NCBI GenBank assembly: GCA_021810625.1 | Contig: JAJZIJ010000026.1 | Span: forward strand, 1-34,694 | Direction: 5' to 3' | Source of the DNA: Acidobacteriota bacterium | GTDB taxonomy: Bacteria; Acidobacteriota; Terriglobia; Terriglobales; Acidobacteriaceae | Length of the DNA stretch: 34,694 nt | Shown here: positions 9,885 to 15,641 of the stretch, in pieces | How positions within the stretch are numbered: the first letter of the stretch is position 1 | How the letters are laid out: each line of letters opens with the position of its first letter | Translations under genes and position numbers: made by a program | Notes under the pieces: model-generated | The model's database searches: none | What the model was told of the DNA's origin: nothing | What the model saw: only the letters and a program-made list of their open reading frames with translations

Positions 9885-10820
9885 ATGCCCATACTCGTTG
9901 TCGGCTCTGTTGCCTTCGATAGCATCCAAACCCCTTCCGGCAGTGTGGATCGCTGCCTGGGAGGGGCCGCGACCCATTTTTCTCTGGCGGCCAGCTTCTT
10001 TACGGATGTCCGCGTGATTGCTGTGGTGGGGGAGGATTTCACCGCGGAGCATGAGGGCGTTTTCGCTGCCCGCAACATCGACATCTCTGGCATCGAGCAC
10101 GCGCGCGGGCGCAGCTTTCATTGGACTGGCGCGTATCACGACAATCTGAACGAAGCCCAGACGCTCCAGACCGACCTCAACGTCTTTGCAAACTTTCAGC
10201 CAAAGATTCCCACCGCTTACGCAGACAGCGAGTATCTCTTTCTGGCCAATATCGATCCTAGGTTGCAGCATGAAGTTCGTCGCCAGATGCCCAGAGTACG
10301 CATGGTCTGTGGCGACACCATGAACTACTGGATCACTGGTCATGCAGAGAATCTGGCGCATGTGCTGCGCGATTTGGACACCTTGCTGATTAACGATGGC
10401 GAGGCCAAACTTCTGGCAGGAGAAACAAATCTTGTAACAGCGGCAGAACGCATTTTGCAAATGGGGCCGAAGACTCTGGTCATCAAACATGGGGAGCACG
10501 GCGCAACGGCGTTCTTCAGCGAGAAATCTTTTGCAGGAAAAGTGCGGAACCGGTTTTTCCGCGCGCCTGCCTTGCCGCTCTCGACTGTGGTAGACCCCAC
10601 CGGCGCTGGCGATTCTTTTGCCGGAGGATTTTTCGGCTATCTGGCCTCGCAGAAAAATTTAACTCCCGCCGTTTTCAAGCGGGCCATGTTTTATGGCGGC
10701 GTGATGGGTTCCTTTGCCGTGGAGCGTTTCGGCACGGAACGTTTGCAGCAACTCACGCGCACCGAAATCAATCAACGTTTTGAACTCTTCCGCGAACTCT
10801 CGCATCTCGATGCCGATTGA
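9885..10820 (+). CDS. PfkB-family carbohydrate/nucleoside kinase
   Basis: The 311-residue ribokinase-fold protein begins VVGSVAFDSIQTPSG and has the GGAATHFSLAASFF substrate-lid segment. Around residue 240 is the catalytic DPTGAGDSFAGGFFGY motif with the anion hole and base Asp. NDGEAKLL marks the usual middle helix. The phosphoacceptor is not determined by the sequence. The pattern of the N-terminal half resembles a widespread uncharacterised group called sugar kinase, and adenosine-kinase-like activity is an alternative. Its position directly behind mtnP suggests, but does not prove, a role with methylthioadenosine products. Its stop overlaps the start of the following membrane protein by 11 bases. 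Confidence 0.88.
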   Translation: MPILVVGSVAFDSIQTPSGSVDRCLGGAATHFSLAASFFTDVRVIAVVGEDFTAEHEGVFAARNIDISGIEHARGRSFHWTGAYHDNLNEAQTLQTDLNVFANFQPKIPTAYADSEYLFLANIDPRLQHEVRRQMPRVRMVCGDTMNYWITGHAENLAHVLRDLDTLLINDGEAKLLAGETNLVTAAERILQMGPKTLVIKHGEHGATAFFSEKSFAGKVRNRFFRAPALPLSTVVDPTGAGDSFAGGFFGYLASQKNLTPAVFKRAMFYGGVMGSFAVERFGTERLQQLTRTEINQRFELFRELSHLDAD

Positions 10821-12414
10821 TCGTCCATCCCCGGCCACGCGGGAGGAAACTCCTTTCGTGCTGGCACTCTCGGTGGCGCTGACTGCGGCCTCGCTGGCCT
10901 ATGGCTTCCGTCATGGACTCCTGCTGTTGTATGGAGACGCAGTCGCCCATCTCCACATTGCGCGCCGCATCTTTGATTCGATAAATCCCGGATATCGTCA
11001 ACTTGGCTCGGTGTGGCTTCCGTTGCCGCATCTGCTGCTGCTGCCGTTTGTGTGGCGCACGGACTGGTGGCAGAACGGTCTGGCTGGTGCTTGGCCTTCG
11101 ATGGCGAGCTATGTTGCCGCCAGTGTGGGCATGTATCGGCTGGCGCGGTTTTGGATGGAGCCGCTCTGGGCCGTGCTGGCCTTTCTCGCCCTGGCGCTGA
11201 ATCCTGGCTTGCTCTATATGAGTACCACCGCCATGACAGAGCCATTGTTTCTGGCGCTGTTCCTCTGGAGCGTGGTATGGCTGCTGGAGTTGGAATGCGC
11301 CACTCGGCTGGAAGATTTTTCGCAGGCGCGCAATGCACTGTGGAAGCTGACGCTTGTTCTGATTGCGGCAGTGTTCACCCGCTACGATGGATGGATTCTC
11401 GGCACGCTGGCATGGATTCTTGCAGCGACTTGGACTGTGCGCCGCAGACTGTGGCGCGCGCGCGCGATGCGTCCGGCGCTGGTGCTCTGTACGCTGCTGC
11501 TGGCCGCAGCGCCGCTGCTCTGGCTGGCCTACAATTGGCGATTTTATGGCGACCCGCTGGATTTTATGCGTGGGCCGTACTCCGCCAGCGCAATTGAAGC
11601 GCGCACCTCCGCCCCCGGCTCCGCGCATTATCCCGGCTATCACCATATATGGATCGCCACGCTGTATTACCTGAAGGCCGCGACGCTTGGCGCATTCTGC
11701 AAACATACTGGCCACGTAATGTTGTTGCTGGCCTACCTGGGAACAGGACTGGCCATCGGGCGCAATCGAGTTTCCGCTCTGCCAGCGGCCTTGTTGCTCT
11801 GGATGCCGCTCCCGTTCTATGCGTACTCCGTGGCCTATAGCGCGGTGCCGATTTTTATTCCCGTGTGGGGGCCATTTGCCTACTACAACACGCGCTATGG
11901 CATGGAGATGCTGCCCGCCTTCGCGCTTTTTCCCTTATTTGTAGCAGTGATGGTTACAAATTATCGTCCGCGCTGGCGTACTCCGGCGCTCTGGATGGTT
12001 GCGGCCTTGATGATCGCCAACAGCCTGCTGTTGCTGTGCGCCACGCCGCTGGTGTTGCAGGAGGCCAGAGTGAACGCCAGTACGCGAGTTCCCTTTGAGA
12101 AGGCGCTGGCGAAAAATCTGATGTTTCTGCCGCCGGAAGATACGGTTTTGATGTACACCTCGGCCCATGTAGGCGCGTTGGAAGATATTGGATTTCCCTT
12201 GAAACAGACGGTGAATGAGGGCGATGATGGACAGTGGGATCGCGCCATGCAACATCCTGCGGCAGCGGCGAATGTGGTGGTGGCGATTGCAGGCGACCCC
12301 GTTGCCGAAGCAGTTTCTCGTCATCCAGAAGGTTTGCAACTGATGGATATTATTTGCAGCACGGGTCAGCCATGCGCGCGCATCTATCGGTCTGCGCTGC
12401 ATGGAGTTCAATAA
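10810..12414 (+). CDS. Multispanning GT-C-like glycosyltransferase family membrane protein
   Basis: The 534-residue integral membrane protein has about ten hydrophobic helices. Its first loop carries GDAVAHLHIARRIFDS followed by GYRQLGSVWLPLPHLLLLPF, a pattern typical of the GT-C/PMT-like superfamily that moves sugars from polyprenyl carriers. The acidic residues of GDAVAH would be the catalytic-site candidates. A soluble C-terminal part (about 430-534) contains NEGDDGQWDRAM. The donor and acceptor are unknown. The ATG at 10810 inside the end of the PfkB gene gives a short cytosolic N-terminus. An upstream in-frame ATG at 10714 would lie wholly within the kinase gene and is less likely. The stop TAA shares its last base with an ATG of the next gene. 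Confidence 0.75.
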   Translation: MPIDRPSPATREETPFVLALSVALTAASLAYGFRHGLLLLYGDAVAHLHIARRIFDSINPGYRQLGSVWLPLPHLLLLPFVWRTDWWQNGLAGAWPSMASYVAASVGMYRLARFWMEPLWAVLAFLALALNPGLLYMSTTAMTEPLFLALFLWSVVWLLELECATRLEDFSQARNALWKLTLVLIAAVFTRYDGWILGTLAWILAATWTVRRRLWRARAMRPALVLCTLLLAAAPLLWLAYNWRFYGDPLDFMRGPYSASAIEARTSAPGSAHYPGYHHIWIATLYYLKAATLGAFCKHTGHVMLLLAYLGTGLAIGRNRVSALPAALLLWMPLPFYAYSVAYSAVPIFIPVWGPFAYYNTRYGMEMLPAFALFPLFVAVMVTNYRPRWRTPALWMVAALMIANSLLLLCATPLVLQEARVNASTRVPFEKALAKNLMFLPPEDTVLMYTSAHVGALEDIGFPLKQTVNEGDDGQWDRAMQHPAAAANVVVAIAGDPVAEAVSRHPEGLQLMDIICSTGQPCARIYRSALHGVQ

Positions 12415-12428
12415 TGCTGGGAGGCGAA

Positions 12429-13232
12429 GTGATTCCTTTCGTAAAAGCACATGCTTGCGGAAATGATTTTTTGATTGTGGATGATGCTCTGGCGCAGGGC
12501 AAACATGCCGAGCTGGCGCGGATGTTGTGCGCGCGTAACACGGGCGTGGGTGCCGATGGCGTGGAATACATCGCTCCAGAAAAAGATGGCAGGATCGCCA
12601 TTCGCCTGATGAATGCCGATGGGTCAGAGGCGGAAATCTCCGGCAATGGAACGCGCTGCGTGGCTGCGTGGCTGGCCTACTCCGCAGGAAAAAAAGAGGT
12701 CGTGATCTTGACGAAGGCTGGGCCTCGGCAGTGTCGCGTGATCTCGCAGATGGGCAGCACGGTACAGATTGAAACGGAGATGGGCGTTCCCGTCGTGCAG
12801 CCACGAACGCTGCGTTTGACTGGGGAAATTACATTGCAAGGCGCGGAGGTCTCTGTCGGCAATCCCCACTTCGTTCTGTTTGTTGAGACGGAGGATTTTT
12901 CCGTTGGGGGACTTTCCTGGCAGCAGATGGGCGAAAAGATCGCGCTGCATCCTGCATTTCCCCACGGCACCAATGCGGAGTTTGTTCGCATTCTCAACAA
13001 ACAGACCATCGAATTTCGCATTTATGAGCGGGGCGTTGGGCCAACGCTTTCGTCGGGCACTGGAACCTGCGCTTCGGCTTCGGCCAGCATCGCTCTGCGT
13101 GGAGTCGAGCGTAAACTGAACGTTCTGGCCGAAGGTGGCGCGCAAACCATCCATTGGCCGGAAAAGGAGCAGCCCATTCTGTTGACGGGGCCTGCGACGA
13201 TCATCGCGCGCGGAGAGGCTGGCTTGGCATGA
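12429..13232 (+). CDS. dapF: Diaminopimelate epimerase-like protein with both catalytic Cys replaced by Ser
   Basis: The 267-residue protein is clearly of the DapF fold. It has HACGNDF near the N-terminus, NADGSEAEISGNGTRC (about 63-78), VGNPHFV, GTNAEFV, YERGVGPTLSSGTGTC and a normal overall length. DapF interconverts LL- and meso-diaminopimelate with two Cys acting as acid and base. Here the codons at both sites encode Ser (TCC at residue 71, TCG at residue 209). The Glu of the usual GxGET motif is also Pro205. The substrate-binding Asn residues and the Glu-Arg pair remain. Epimerase activity is therefore doubtful, and the symbol marks homology only. The start is probably GTG 12429, behind GGGAGG. 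An ATG at 12414 in frame is the alternative. Confidence 0.85.
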   Translation: MIPFVKAHACGNDFLIVDDALAQGKHAELARMLCARNTGVGADGVEYIAPEKDGRIAIRLMNADGSEAEISGNGTRCVAAWLAYSAGKKEVVILTKAGPRQCRVISQMGSTVQIETEMGVPVVQPRTLRLTGEITLQGAEVSVGNPHFVLFVETEDFSVGGLSWQQMGEKIALHPAFPHGTNAEFVRILNKQTIEFRIYERGVGPTLSSGTGTCASASASIALRGVERKLNVLAEGGAQTIHWPEKEQPILLTGPATIIARGEAGLA

Positions 13233-14209
13233 CTTCCACGCCGATCAAGGCAATGCCGACCCTGCGACCAGCGGCCCTTTGCGAGGGCAGCGCGATTCGT
13301 CTGGTCTCTCCTGCGAGCTGGTTCGATCCTCAAAAGGTGAATCGCGGCATGGATGCGCTGCGCCAGATTGGATATCGCCCGGAGTTGGCGCGGAATGCGC
13401 TGGCGCGCCATGCGGAATACTTTGCTGGAACCGTTGCCGAAAGGCTGGAGGATTTGCACGCGGCATTTCGCGATCCATCGGTGGACGCGGTAATTTGTAA
13501 CCGTGGTGGTTACGGATCGGCAGAATTATTGCAAGGTCTCGATATTGCGCTTTTCCGAAAGCACCCAAAGGCGCTTATCGGATGCAGCGACATCACGACA
13601 CTGCTGACCTGGCTGCATGATGCAACCGGAGTAGTGACTTTTCATGGGCCGATGGCTGCTGGAGATTTTGCCCGCGCCGAAGGCATCGATGCTGCAAGCT
13701 GGCATCAGGCGCTGGGCCAGACCGCGCCGTGGCATCTGGATGGCAGCTCCGGGCTGCGCGTATTGAAACCCGGACGTGCAACTGGAAAATTCTACGGCGG
13801 CTGTCTCTCCATGCTGGCGGCATCGTTGGGAACGCCGTATGAAATCCAAACAGACGACACCATTTTGTTCGTCGAGGATGTAGCCACCAAGCCATATCAG
13901 GTTGATCGCATGTGGATGCAGTTGCGCTTGGCGGGGAAGCTGGACAAGGTTCGCGGCATCGTCTTTGGTCCGATGCTCGATTGCGTGCAGCCCGGCCAGC
14001 CCAGCGACATGCTGGAAAAAGTTCTGCTGCGCGTGTTGGAGGATTTCCCCGGCCCCGTCGCCATTGGATTACGCTCCGGCCATGTGACGGAGCGCAACCT
14101 GACGCTGCCCATCGGGATTGCGAGCGAGTTGGATCTGACGCAGGCTCCCGTTCTTCATTTTCTGGAAGCGGCTGTTACGCTGGAAGCACGCACCCATGTC
14201 AAAACCTAA
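13229..14209 (+). CDS. LD-carboxypeptidase, peptidase family S66
   Basis: The 326-residue cytosolic Ser peptidase removes the terminal D-alanine from murein tetrapeptides, a step of peptidoglycan recycling. All three catalytic residues of the S66 family are visible: nucleophile Ser120 in IGCSDIT, Glu216 in LFVEDV and His285 in SGHVTER. There is no signal peptide, which fits a cytosolic recycling role. The start ATG overlaps the stop of the dapF-like gene as ATGA (13229-13232), with GGAGAGG about 10 bases upstream. The 3' end overlaps mpl by 14 bases. The three genes therefore form a tightly coupled murein-peptide block. It resembles E. coli LdcA, but orthology is not provable here. Confidence 0.93.
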   Translation: MTSTPIKAMPTLRPAALCEGSAIRLVSPASWFDPQKVNRGMDALRQIGYRPELARNALARHAEYFAGTVAERLEDLHAAFRDPSVDAVICNRGGYGSAELLQGLDIALFRKHPKALIGCSDITTLLTWLHDATGVVTFHGPMAAGDFARAEGIDAASWHQALGQTAPWHLDGSSGLRVLKPGRATGKFYGGCLSMLAASLGTPYEIQTDDTILFVEDVATKPYQVDRMWMQLRLAGKLDKVRGIVFGPMLDCVQPGQPSDMLEKVLLRVLEDFPGPVAIGLRSGHVTERNLTLPIGIASELDLTQAPVLHFLEAAVTLEARTHVKT

Positions 14210-15641
14210 ACATGTTCACCTGATTGGAATCTGTGGCACGGCGATGGCGTCTCTGGCCGGCTTGTTGCAACTCTCCGGCTGGCACGTCACTGGATCGGAC
14301 GCAGCGGTATATCCGCCCATGTCCGACCTGCTGGCGAGTCTGCGGATTCCGATACGCCAGCCATTCGCAGAGTCAAATTTGCAGCCCTCCCCGGATTGCA
14401 TCCTCGTGGGCAACGCCATCTCTCGCGGCAATGTGGAGTTGGAGGCTGCGCTGGATCAGAAGATTCCGATCTACTCAATGGCACAGACGCTCCATGAACA
14501 TTTTCTGCGCGGACGCGAATCGCTGGTGATCGCCGGAACGCACGGCAAGACGACCACGACCAGCATGTTGGCCTGGATTTATGAAGTGGCCGCGCAGTCG
14601 GATCCCAAGTGGGCACCATCGTTTTTGGTGGGTGGAGTCGCAGAAAACTTTGGCTCCAGCTTTGCGCTGCGCCCTACAAAACCCTTCATTTTGGAAGGCG
14701 ATGAATACGACACGGCATTTTTCGACAAAGGGCCAAAGTTTCTTCACTACTTTCCAGACGCGCTGATCCTGACGCATGTGGAGTATGACCACGCGGACAT
14801 TTATGCCGATCTGGATGCCGCGCGAACGGCCTTTCGACGACTGGTTAATTTGGTTCCCCGGCGTGGACGTATCGTGGCCTTTGATGGCTCTGACAACGTG
14901 ACGCAATGCGTTGCGCACGCTTTCTGCGCGGTTGAGCGCTATGGATTTTCTGCGGATTCGCATTGGCGCATCTCCGATTTTTCGACGAAGGAAGATCGCA
15001 GCCTGTGGCGCGTGGAGCGGCAAGGTTCCCCCTGGATGGACTTTGAAATGTCGTTTGTTGGCGAGCATAACGTGCTGAACGCGACTGCCGCTGCTGCGTT
15101 GGCCGCAGGGCAAGGCGTGCCGGAGGAGGCAATTCGCAAAGCGCTCGCGAGCTTCCGCAGCGTGAAGCGTCGTCTGGAGGTTTGCGCGGAAGTCGCAGGC
15201 ATCACCATCATCGACGACTTCGCGCATCATCCGACGGCGATTCGAGAGACGCTGCGCGCCCTGCGCGCGCGCTATCCGGGACGACGCTTGTGGGCCGTGC
15301 TGGAGCCGCGCTCCAACACGCTGCGCCGCAATGTCTTTGAGAAGGAGTTGGTGGAAAGTCTGCAAATGGCGGATGCCGTCGTTCTCGCGGCAGTCTATCA
15401 ACAGGAAAAAATTCCAGCGGATCAACGACTGCACGCGGAGCATGTTGTTGCCCGCCTCAAGGAACGCGCCGTGCCTGCCGTGTTATTGCCGGATGTCGAT
15501 GCCATCGTCGCGCATCTGGCCGACCAATTGGTGGCGGGCGATGTGGTTGCTCTTCTATCCAATGGTGGCTTTGGAGATATCTATCACAAGCTGCCGCAGC
15601 GGTTGCGCGAATCCATGCGCGAGCCAGGCGGCAAAGGTTGA
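14196..15641 (+). CDS. mpl: UDP-MurNAc:L-Ala-gamma-D-Glu-mDAP ligase (murein peptide ligase)
   Basis: The 481-residue Mur-ligase-family enzyme reattaches the recovered tripeptide L-Ala-gamma-D-Glu-meso-DAP to UDP-MurNAc in the cytosol, returning recycled wall peptide to synthesis. It begins VHLIGICGTAMASLAGLL, the UDP-binding Gly-rich loop. The ATP P-loop GTHGKTTTTS lies at about 114-123, and LEGDEYDTAFFDKGPKF, DALILTHVEYDHADIY, GEHNVLNATAA and DDFAHHPTAI follow. The FDKGPKF segment and lack of a MurC-like stop point favour Mpl over MurC. The product of the preceding carboxypeptidase is exactly its substrate. The gene overlaps that upstream gene by 14 bases. Confidence 0.94.
   Translation: MSKPKHVHLIGICGTAMASLAGLLQLSGWHVTGSDAAVYPPMSDLLASLRIPIRQPFAESNLQPSPDCILVGNAISRGNVELEAALDQKIPIYSMAQTLHEHFLRGRESLVIAGTHGKTTTTSMLAWIYEVAAQSDPKWAPSFLVGGVAENFGSSFALRPTKPFILEGDEYDTAFFDKGPKFLHYFPDALILTHVEYDHADIYADLDAARTAFRRLVNLVPRRGRIVAFDGSDNVTQCVAHAFCAVERYGFSADSHWRISDFSTKEDRSLWRVERQGSPWMDFEMSFVGEHNVLNATAAAALAAGQGVPEEAIRKALASFRSVKRRLEVCAEVAGITIIDDFAHHPTAIRETLRALRARYPGRRLWAVLEPRSNTLRRNVFEKELVESLQMADAVVLAAVYQQEKIPADQRLHAEHVVARLKERAVPAVLLPDVDAIVAHLADQLVAGDVVALLSNGGFGDIYHKLPQRLRESMREPGGKG

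Follow-up and report, generated by a model that had tools for sequence, protein, structure and literature searches.

The dapF gene of this acidobacterial contig encodes a diaminopimelate (DAP) epimerase family protein with serine at both positions of the catalytic cysteines, and its product is probably the organism's working DAP epimerase, which would convert LL-DAP to meso-DAP with two serine hydroxyls in place of the two catalytic thiols. Judged from the genomes, the best supported function of this Ser/Ser DapF would be an ordinary role performed with an extraordinary acid-base pair.

The window is the whole stretch of 34,694 nucleotides that was analyzed, and the features of the dapF locus are listed in the table below. 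A GGAGG sequence sits a few bases 5ʹ of the GTG start codon. The product matched the full-length DapF family TIGR00652 with 214.1 bits (cut-off 114.65) and PF01678 with 158.1 (cut-off 34.7), the latter as two half matches. A bifunctional DapF/glutamate racemase was rejected, as the score for NF038284 was 82.5 bits against a cut-off of 350 and the genome has a separate MurI. This glutamate racemase keeps its catalytic cysteines (ACNT and GCTHYP), indicating no general avoidance of thiol racemases in this organism.

Table. Features of the dapF locus in the window
Feature	Position	Strand	Remarks
Upstream hydrophobic protein	10807..12414	+	No Pfam family (0); often kept beside dapF
dapF	12429..13232	+	267 aa from a GTG codon; member of the DAP epimerase family carrying Ser71/Ser209
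Ser71 codon TCC	12639..12641	+	First catalytic Cys position (Cys73 of E. coli)
Ser209 codon TCG	13053..13055	+	Second catalytic Cys position (Cys217 of E. coli)
S66 LD-carboxypeptidase gene	13229..14209	+	PF02016 and PF17676; NF008424 154.9 bits, under cut-off of 378
mpl, UDP-MurNAc:L-Ala-gamma-D-Glu-meso-DAP ligase	14196..15641	+	TIGR01081 410.5 bits (cut-off 388.7)

An earlier note on this DNA had described both catalytic cysteines as replaced by serine, and translation together with alignment to the E. coli enzyme confirmed this. Ser71, within EISGNGTRC, aligned with Cys73, and Ser209, within TLSSGTGT, with Cys217, so that the cysteines which characterize two-thiol (Cys/Cys) DAP epimerases at the acid-base positions are both missing. 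The nearest genome carries the same two codons at these sites, and all 57 DapF genes read within the class were Ser/Ser, which excludes chance or sequencing error as the source of this form. In comparison with the sister genome, dapF was found to be under purifying selection (dN 0.061, dS 0.396, dN/dS 0.154).

The class sample consisted of 61 genomes, the organism's own and 60 relatives. A protein search matched 57 of the 61, with one gene each, and a Pfam PF01678 search matched 58, of which 57 were over the cut-off. When a second PF01678 gene was sought in the source genome (2.45 Mb, 99% complete), none was found, and a Cys-type dapF paralogue elsewhere in this genome was ruled out on that basis. 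The idea that the Ser/Ser protein might be a paralogue beside a conventional enzyme thus lost ground, as dapF was the sole PF01678 gene found and the class as read carries Ser/Ser throughout. The class genomes without a protein match were G049 (75% complete), G050 (54%), G052 (100%) and G055 (98%). Searches of G052 and G055 gave neither a PF01678 match nor a match to meso-DAP dehydrogenase (Ddh); some relatives may therefore form meso-DAP in another way or build a wall that lacks it. These two absences are the main fact against the simple story for the Ser/Ser DapF.

The source genome contains the genes that make and use DAP. The genes lysC, dapB, dapA and dapD lie side by side on its contig 70, with scores of 530 for lysC (NF006570, cut-off 455), 321 for dapA (TIGR00674, cut-off 206) and 294.5 for dapD (NF008808, cut-off 204); dapB was slightly below its cut-off (119.1 vs. 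122), yet it carries HHISKKDAPSGTA. The presence of dapD indicates the succinylase route instead of the LL-DAP aminotransferase DapL, which was rejected: the best match in the organism's own genome was 83.5 against 364.7, and no cut-off was passed among the 25 NCBIfam families shown. Ddh was also rejected as an alternative route, as it was over the cut-off in none of the 61 class genomes and none of the weak N-terminal matches in 18 of them passed. To our knowledge, every DAP route except that through Ddh ends in LL-DAP, and since no Ddh exceeded the cut-off, this organism should need an epimerase. On the consuming side, LysA scored 502 (cut-off 298) and MurE, named as the DAP ligase, scored 521 (cut-off 373) and has DNPR, which we take to mark DAP specificity. 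Mpl, whose family name refers to the meso-DAP tripeptide, adds to this demand.

The earlier note had considered an inactive enzyme or another substrate, and had made its case for a new function depend on dapF not being the sole DAP epimerase of an organism with a DAP-containing wall. At the gene level, we found a single DapF together with genes that predict a DAP-containing wall. The proposal of inactivity or another substrate is weakened by the missing second DapF, the class-wide form, the intact contacts described below, the dN/dS of 0.154 and the genes that require meso-DAP. The wall composition of these bacteria was not found in the part of the literature searched; the published growth tests in it used yeast-extract media or left lysine prototrophy unsettled.

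The predicted structure agreed with the family assignment. The AF2 model of the dapF product, built with 57 sequences, had a pLDDT of 95.9 and a pTM of 0.92, and has the two domains of the DapF fold with the catalytic residues heading two helices, which start at 72 and 210, straight after Ser71 and Ser209. The best PDB match was a cyanobacterial DapF (9mro_A; Z 34.8, rmsd 1.9 Å, 255 residues aligned), tied with the next two at Z 34.1, namely 3ejx_B (A. thaliana DapF) and 7vdy_B (O-ureidoserine racemase); C. glutamicum DapF (5m47) followed at Z 32.4, and Foldseek also put DapF structures first. The substrate-contacting Asn residues and the ERG pair are retained, as the earlier reading had stated: Asn12, Asn62, Asn145, Asn182, Glu200 and Arg201 correspond to E. 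coli Asn11, Asn64, Asn157, Asn190, Glu208 and Arg209, which we take to be the polar DAP contacts.

A scan of named genomes returned at least 570 relatives, of which the 80 ranking highest in similarity to the query were kept, giving a biased set. All 80 of these best loci among at least 570 were Ser/Ser, including that of Terriglobus roseus DSM 18391 (L096), and the titles of these 80, from which the phylum was named Acidobacteriota, were acidobacterial or simply "bacterium," apart from one record (L089) titled Verrucomicrobia. L089 carries a dapF of the acidobacterial type, flanked by PNP and PfkB genes as at the source locus, and its genome is probably mislabelled or mixed. A separate phylum sample of 149 genomes contained 139 with a DapF match, 130 of them over the cut-off, and 123 of the 139 were read; the other 16 were 15 from the source organism's family, among them the source genome itself and some read earlier, and one further genome, G189. 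Among the 123 genomes read, all outside the class, 60 had only Ser/Ser, 56 only Cys/Cys, four Cys/Ser and three both forms. Counted per family, 33 of 58 were Ser/Ser only and 21 Cys/Cys only. The three genomes with both forms all belong to family f32, and Cys/Ser was the sole copy found in its four genomes (L185, L224, L227 and L258; families f17, f28 and f50).

Some Cys/Cys proteins were unusual. Those of family f32 (L273, L275–L281, L285 and L286) were strongly diverged, with Asp for Asn62 and Ala for Cys77, and scored below the TIGR00652 cut-off, and three genomes of this family hold a Ser/Ser copy as well; those of family f56 (L262, L263 and L282–L284) had CLNAARC where CGNGxRC is expected, with Cys/Cys kept. 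Outside the phylum, nine plasmid-borne dapF genes were read of 117 matching plasmid records, and eight were Cys/Cys and one, from Sphingomonas, was a diverged Cys/Ser form. On plasmid p1 of Sphingomonas morindae (L291), both catalytic motifs were diverged (CGSATRG and GSGSCSC). As the outside sample is these nine plasmid copies, we do not claim that Ser/Ser occurs only in this phylum. Viral contigs gave 26 pattern matches and zero true relatives of dapF; 28 phage records had matches below 60% identity. A DNA-pattern survey of the phylum was dropped in favor of the family search, since it mixed real and chance hits and the reversed control also matched often.

A maximum-likelihood tree was built from 127 rows, with near-duplicates removed by hand and columns 71 and 209 left out, by a quick search under a mixture model with SH-aLRT supports. 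The main Ser/Ser clade comprised 61 rows (support 98). A second Ser/Ser clade of seven rows from families f12 and f39 (support 100) was nested in a 52-row clade (support 97) that was otherwise Cys/Cys or Cys/Ser, and a third group of three rows, the extra copies of family f32, was placed elsewhere in the tree. Well-supported branches alone forced two changes, and a single clade of all Ser/Ser rows was rejected (AU p 0.0163; p 0.0165 without the third group). There were at least two changes between Cys/Cys and Ser/Ser. The question whether the Ser/Ser form is a clade-wide orthologue or a paralogue was answered in part as an orthologue would have it, the form being clade-wide in the class with no paralogue found, but the Ser/Ser proteins as a whole do not make up one clade. 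The outgroup was the nine plasmid-borne rows of other phyla, which did not fall on one side of a branch and left the root unfixed. We infer that the changes were gains of serine because the outgroup and the solved structures are Cys/Cys. The four Cys/Ser genes are possible natural intermediates and agree with a change at the second site before the first. We lean towards the view that a large part of the phylum makes meso-DAP via Ser/Ser DapF, that this form arose repeatedly from Cys/Cys, and that Cys/Ser forms survive. Around the other Ser/Ser genes, one f12 locus (L304) lay near xerC-like and hslU-like genes, as judged by eye, and in one genome (G122) the extra Ser/Ser copy was followed by an ArgE/DapE deacylase-like gene that was below all cut-offs.

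Either serine does a job that was thought to need cysteine, or another enzyme makes meso-DAP. The second option, that the Ser/Ser protein has lost DAP epimerization and keeps a structural, regulatory or DAP-binding role while an unrelated enzyme makes meso-DAP, is unlikely but has several points in its favor. Changing Cys to Ser leaves related enzymes almost without activity: single mutants of the racemase PddB had less than 0.1% activity, with M. tuberculosis DapF said to be the same (PMC8225329), and the activity of HisR mutants was greatly reduced (PMC11602996). A review states that cysteine is chemically preferred over serine for its lower pKa and easier desolvation (PMC8142540), and G052 and G055, without DapF and Ddh, suggest that another route may exist. 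Against it stands the conservation of the active site. In the main Ser/Ser clade, the six contacts and Gly72-Asn73 were invariant in 61 of 61 rows, Gly74 was kept in 60 and Gly210 in 57, none of which a dead catalyst would need. Over 272 loci (some genes counted twice), Cys and Ser were the sole residues at either catalytic site, and the scatter of the Ser/Ser rows over more than one clade also speaks against such a loss. At a further position, E. coli Gln44 is Gly in the dapF product, as it is in 51 of 52 Cys/Cys rows.

The distribution of LysA bears on the same question. In the phylum sample, it was over the cut-off in 34 of 53 genomes that have the main Ser/Ser form and in 9 of 56 Cys/Cys genomes; the figures were 0 of 7 for the second Ser/Ser clade, 0 of 4 for Cys/Ser and 2 of 3 where both forms occur together. 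The association of LysA with Ser/Ser had a Fisher p of 2.6e-7 in plain counts, but there were just two independent contrasts on the tree. This pattern is not what the loss of epimerization predicts, though the second Ser/Ser clade runs opposite to it; in Cys/Cys genomes, LysA may be too diverged for the cut-off. Further points against a working Ser/Ser epimerase come from that second clade, in which Asn145 is replaced by V, I or L and none of the seven genomes has LysA over the cut-off.

As noted earlier for this locus, LD-carboxypeptidase and Mpl genes adjoin dapF. The dapF stop codon overlaps the ATG of the S66 carboxypeptidase gene (ATGA, 13229–13232), which in turn overlaps mpl (14196 vs. 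14209), and because of these overlaps the three genes are probably co-translated. The arrangement was kept among relatives. Of the best 80 named loci, some of them cut by contig ends, 78 had S66 beside dapF, 72 had mpl and 70 had the upstream hydrophobic protein; when 29 class loci were tested, S66 and mpl were there in all 29 and the hydrophobic protein in 23. Outside the class, none of 30 DapF loci, 22 of them Ser/Ser, had S66 or mpl as neighbours in flanks of about 1.5 kb. Murein-gene coupling is therefore a trait of the class and not of the Ser/Ser form, so the neighbours say little about that form.

These neighbours had been one reason to suspect that the protein racemizes, epimerizes or eliminates from a different substrate, which could be DAP as part of a murein peptide or some other diamino acid. 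The family offers precedents, as the DapF fold serves several substrates (PMC12039745), the lone DapF homologue of Fusobacterium turned out to be a histidine racemase (PMC11602996) and one relative with a Ser/Thr pair acts as a dehydratase (PMC4113996). We consider this reading very unlikely for dapF, given the 0/30 result outside the class, the retained polar residues matching the E. coli DAP contacts, and the failure to find another DapF in a genome with DAP-pathway genes.

Other residues near the catalytic sites were compared among the groups. Glu was the commonest residue at position 69 in the main Ser/Ser clade (87%) and the second (100%) and was present in 3 of 3 rows of the third group, compared to 13% of Cys/Cys rows. 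Cys77 was invariant in the 14-sequence class alignment A1. The replacement of Glu by Pro in GxGET, also pointed out in the earlier note, is present but not telling; it is a local trait, since the 61 main-clade rows have Glu there in 21 cases and Pro in 22, and all 7 rows of the second clade have Glu. The least probable alternative is a DAP epimerase in which Glu69, Cys77, Cys10, or a bound water or metal, and not the two serines, transfers the proton; the enrichment of Glu69 and the invariance of Cys77 in the class would favor it, whereas 13% of main-clade rows lack Glu69, Cys77 is equally common in Cys/Cys (44/52) and main Ser/Ser rows (51/61) and absent in the third group, and in the order's second family 11 of 12 genes have Asn at position 10.

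In enzymes of this kind, a thiolate pulls off a proton with a pKa of about 29 without any cofactor. If the two serines of the dapF product do the same, we propose that Ser71 and Ser209, at the N-termini of two central helices, would face the DAP alpha-carbon from one side each, and that the helix dipoles and backbone NH groups, which lower the thiol pKa in the Cys enzymes, would stabilize a serine alkoxide. One serine might then accept a proton within the closed, desolvated pocket and the other donate one, perhaps, at a guess, with the help of a nearby acid such as Glu69. The published thiol pKa values of H. influenzae DapF, 6.5 and 8.5, were attributed to the N-termini of helices and to backbone amides (PMC12039745). 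A possible gain from Ser/Ser would be immunity to the oxidative switch reported for Cys/Cys DapF, as the C. glutamicum enzyme is inactivated under oxidation by a disulfide joining its catalytic cysteines (PMC5296763).

The "different mechanism" that the earlier interpretation had listed is now its most interesting part. If serine does the work, cofactor-independent amino-acid stereoinversion needs no thiol at all, and the availability of Cys/Cys, Cys/Ser and Ser/Ser relatives for comparison makes the thiolate answer testable. If the Ser/Ser protein is dead, an undiscovered DAP epimerase awaits. As DapF is an antibacterial target, thiol-reactive inhibitors such as aziridine-DAP should be expected to fail on Ser/Ser forms.

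In the literature searched (mostly without subscription journals, by titles and abstracts), we found no description of a natural Ser/Ser DapF or of a natural serine at either DapF site. One natural serine is already known in an active relative. The 4-hydroxyproline epimerase of the proline racemase superfamily, which shares the superfamily fold, has a catalytic Ser93 at one position and is active (PMC4113996); it differs from the dapF product in having one serine, opposite a cysteine (Cys236 in the figure legend and Cys255 in the text of that paper), and another substrate. Hydroxyproline epimerases in our fold comparison had 13–15% identity to the dapF product. The trans-3-hydroxyproline dehydratase B9K4G4 (Ser90/Thr256) likewise has no cysteine at the catalytic sites, but it eliminates water and does not epimerize, and its Thr is described as having a non-catalytic orientation (PMC4113996). 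The engineered H. influenzae DapF variants C73S and C217S (2q9h and 2q9j) have serine at one of the same sites; a Cys mutation of this kind was used since it hinders catalysis and helps crystallization (PMC12039745). These variants are laboratory-made and changed at a single site each, and such single changes cripple the enzymes, whereas the Ser/Ser form is a natural double change in a wide clade. The closest known systems are the Cys/Cys DapF enzymes (TIGR00652) of H. influenzae, Anabaena, A. thaliana and C. glutamicum, with which the dapF product shares the family, the predicted fold, the six contacts and the catalytic sites at helix N-termini; it differs in having two serines, which leaves it with neither a thiol-thiolate pair nor a disulfide switch.
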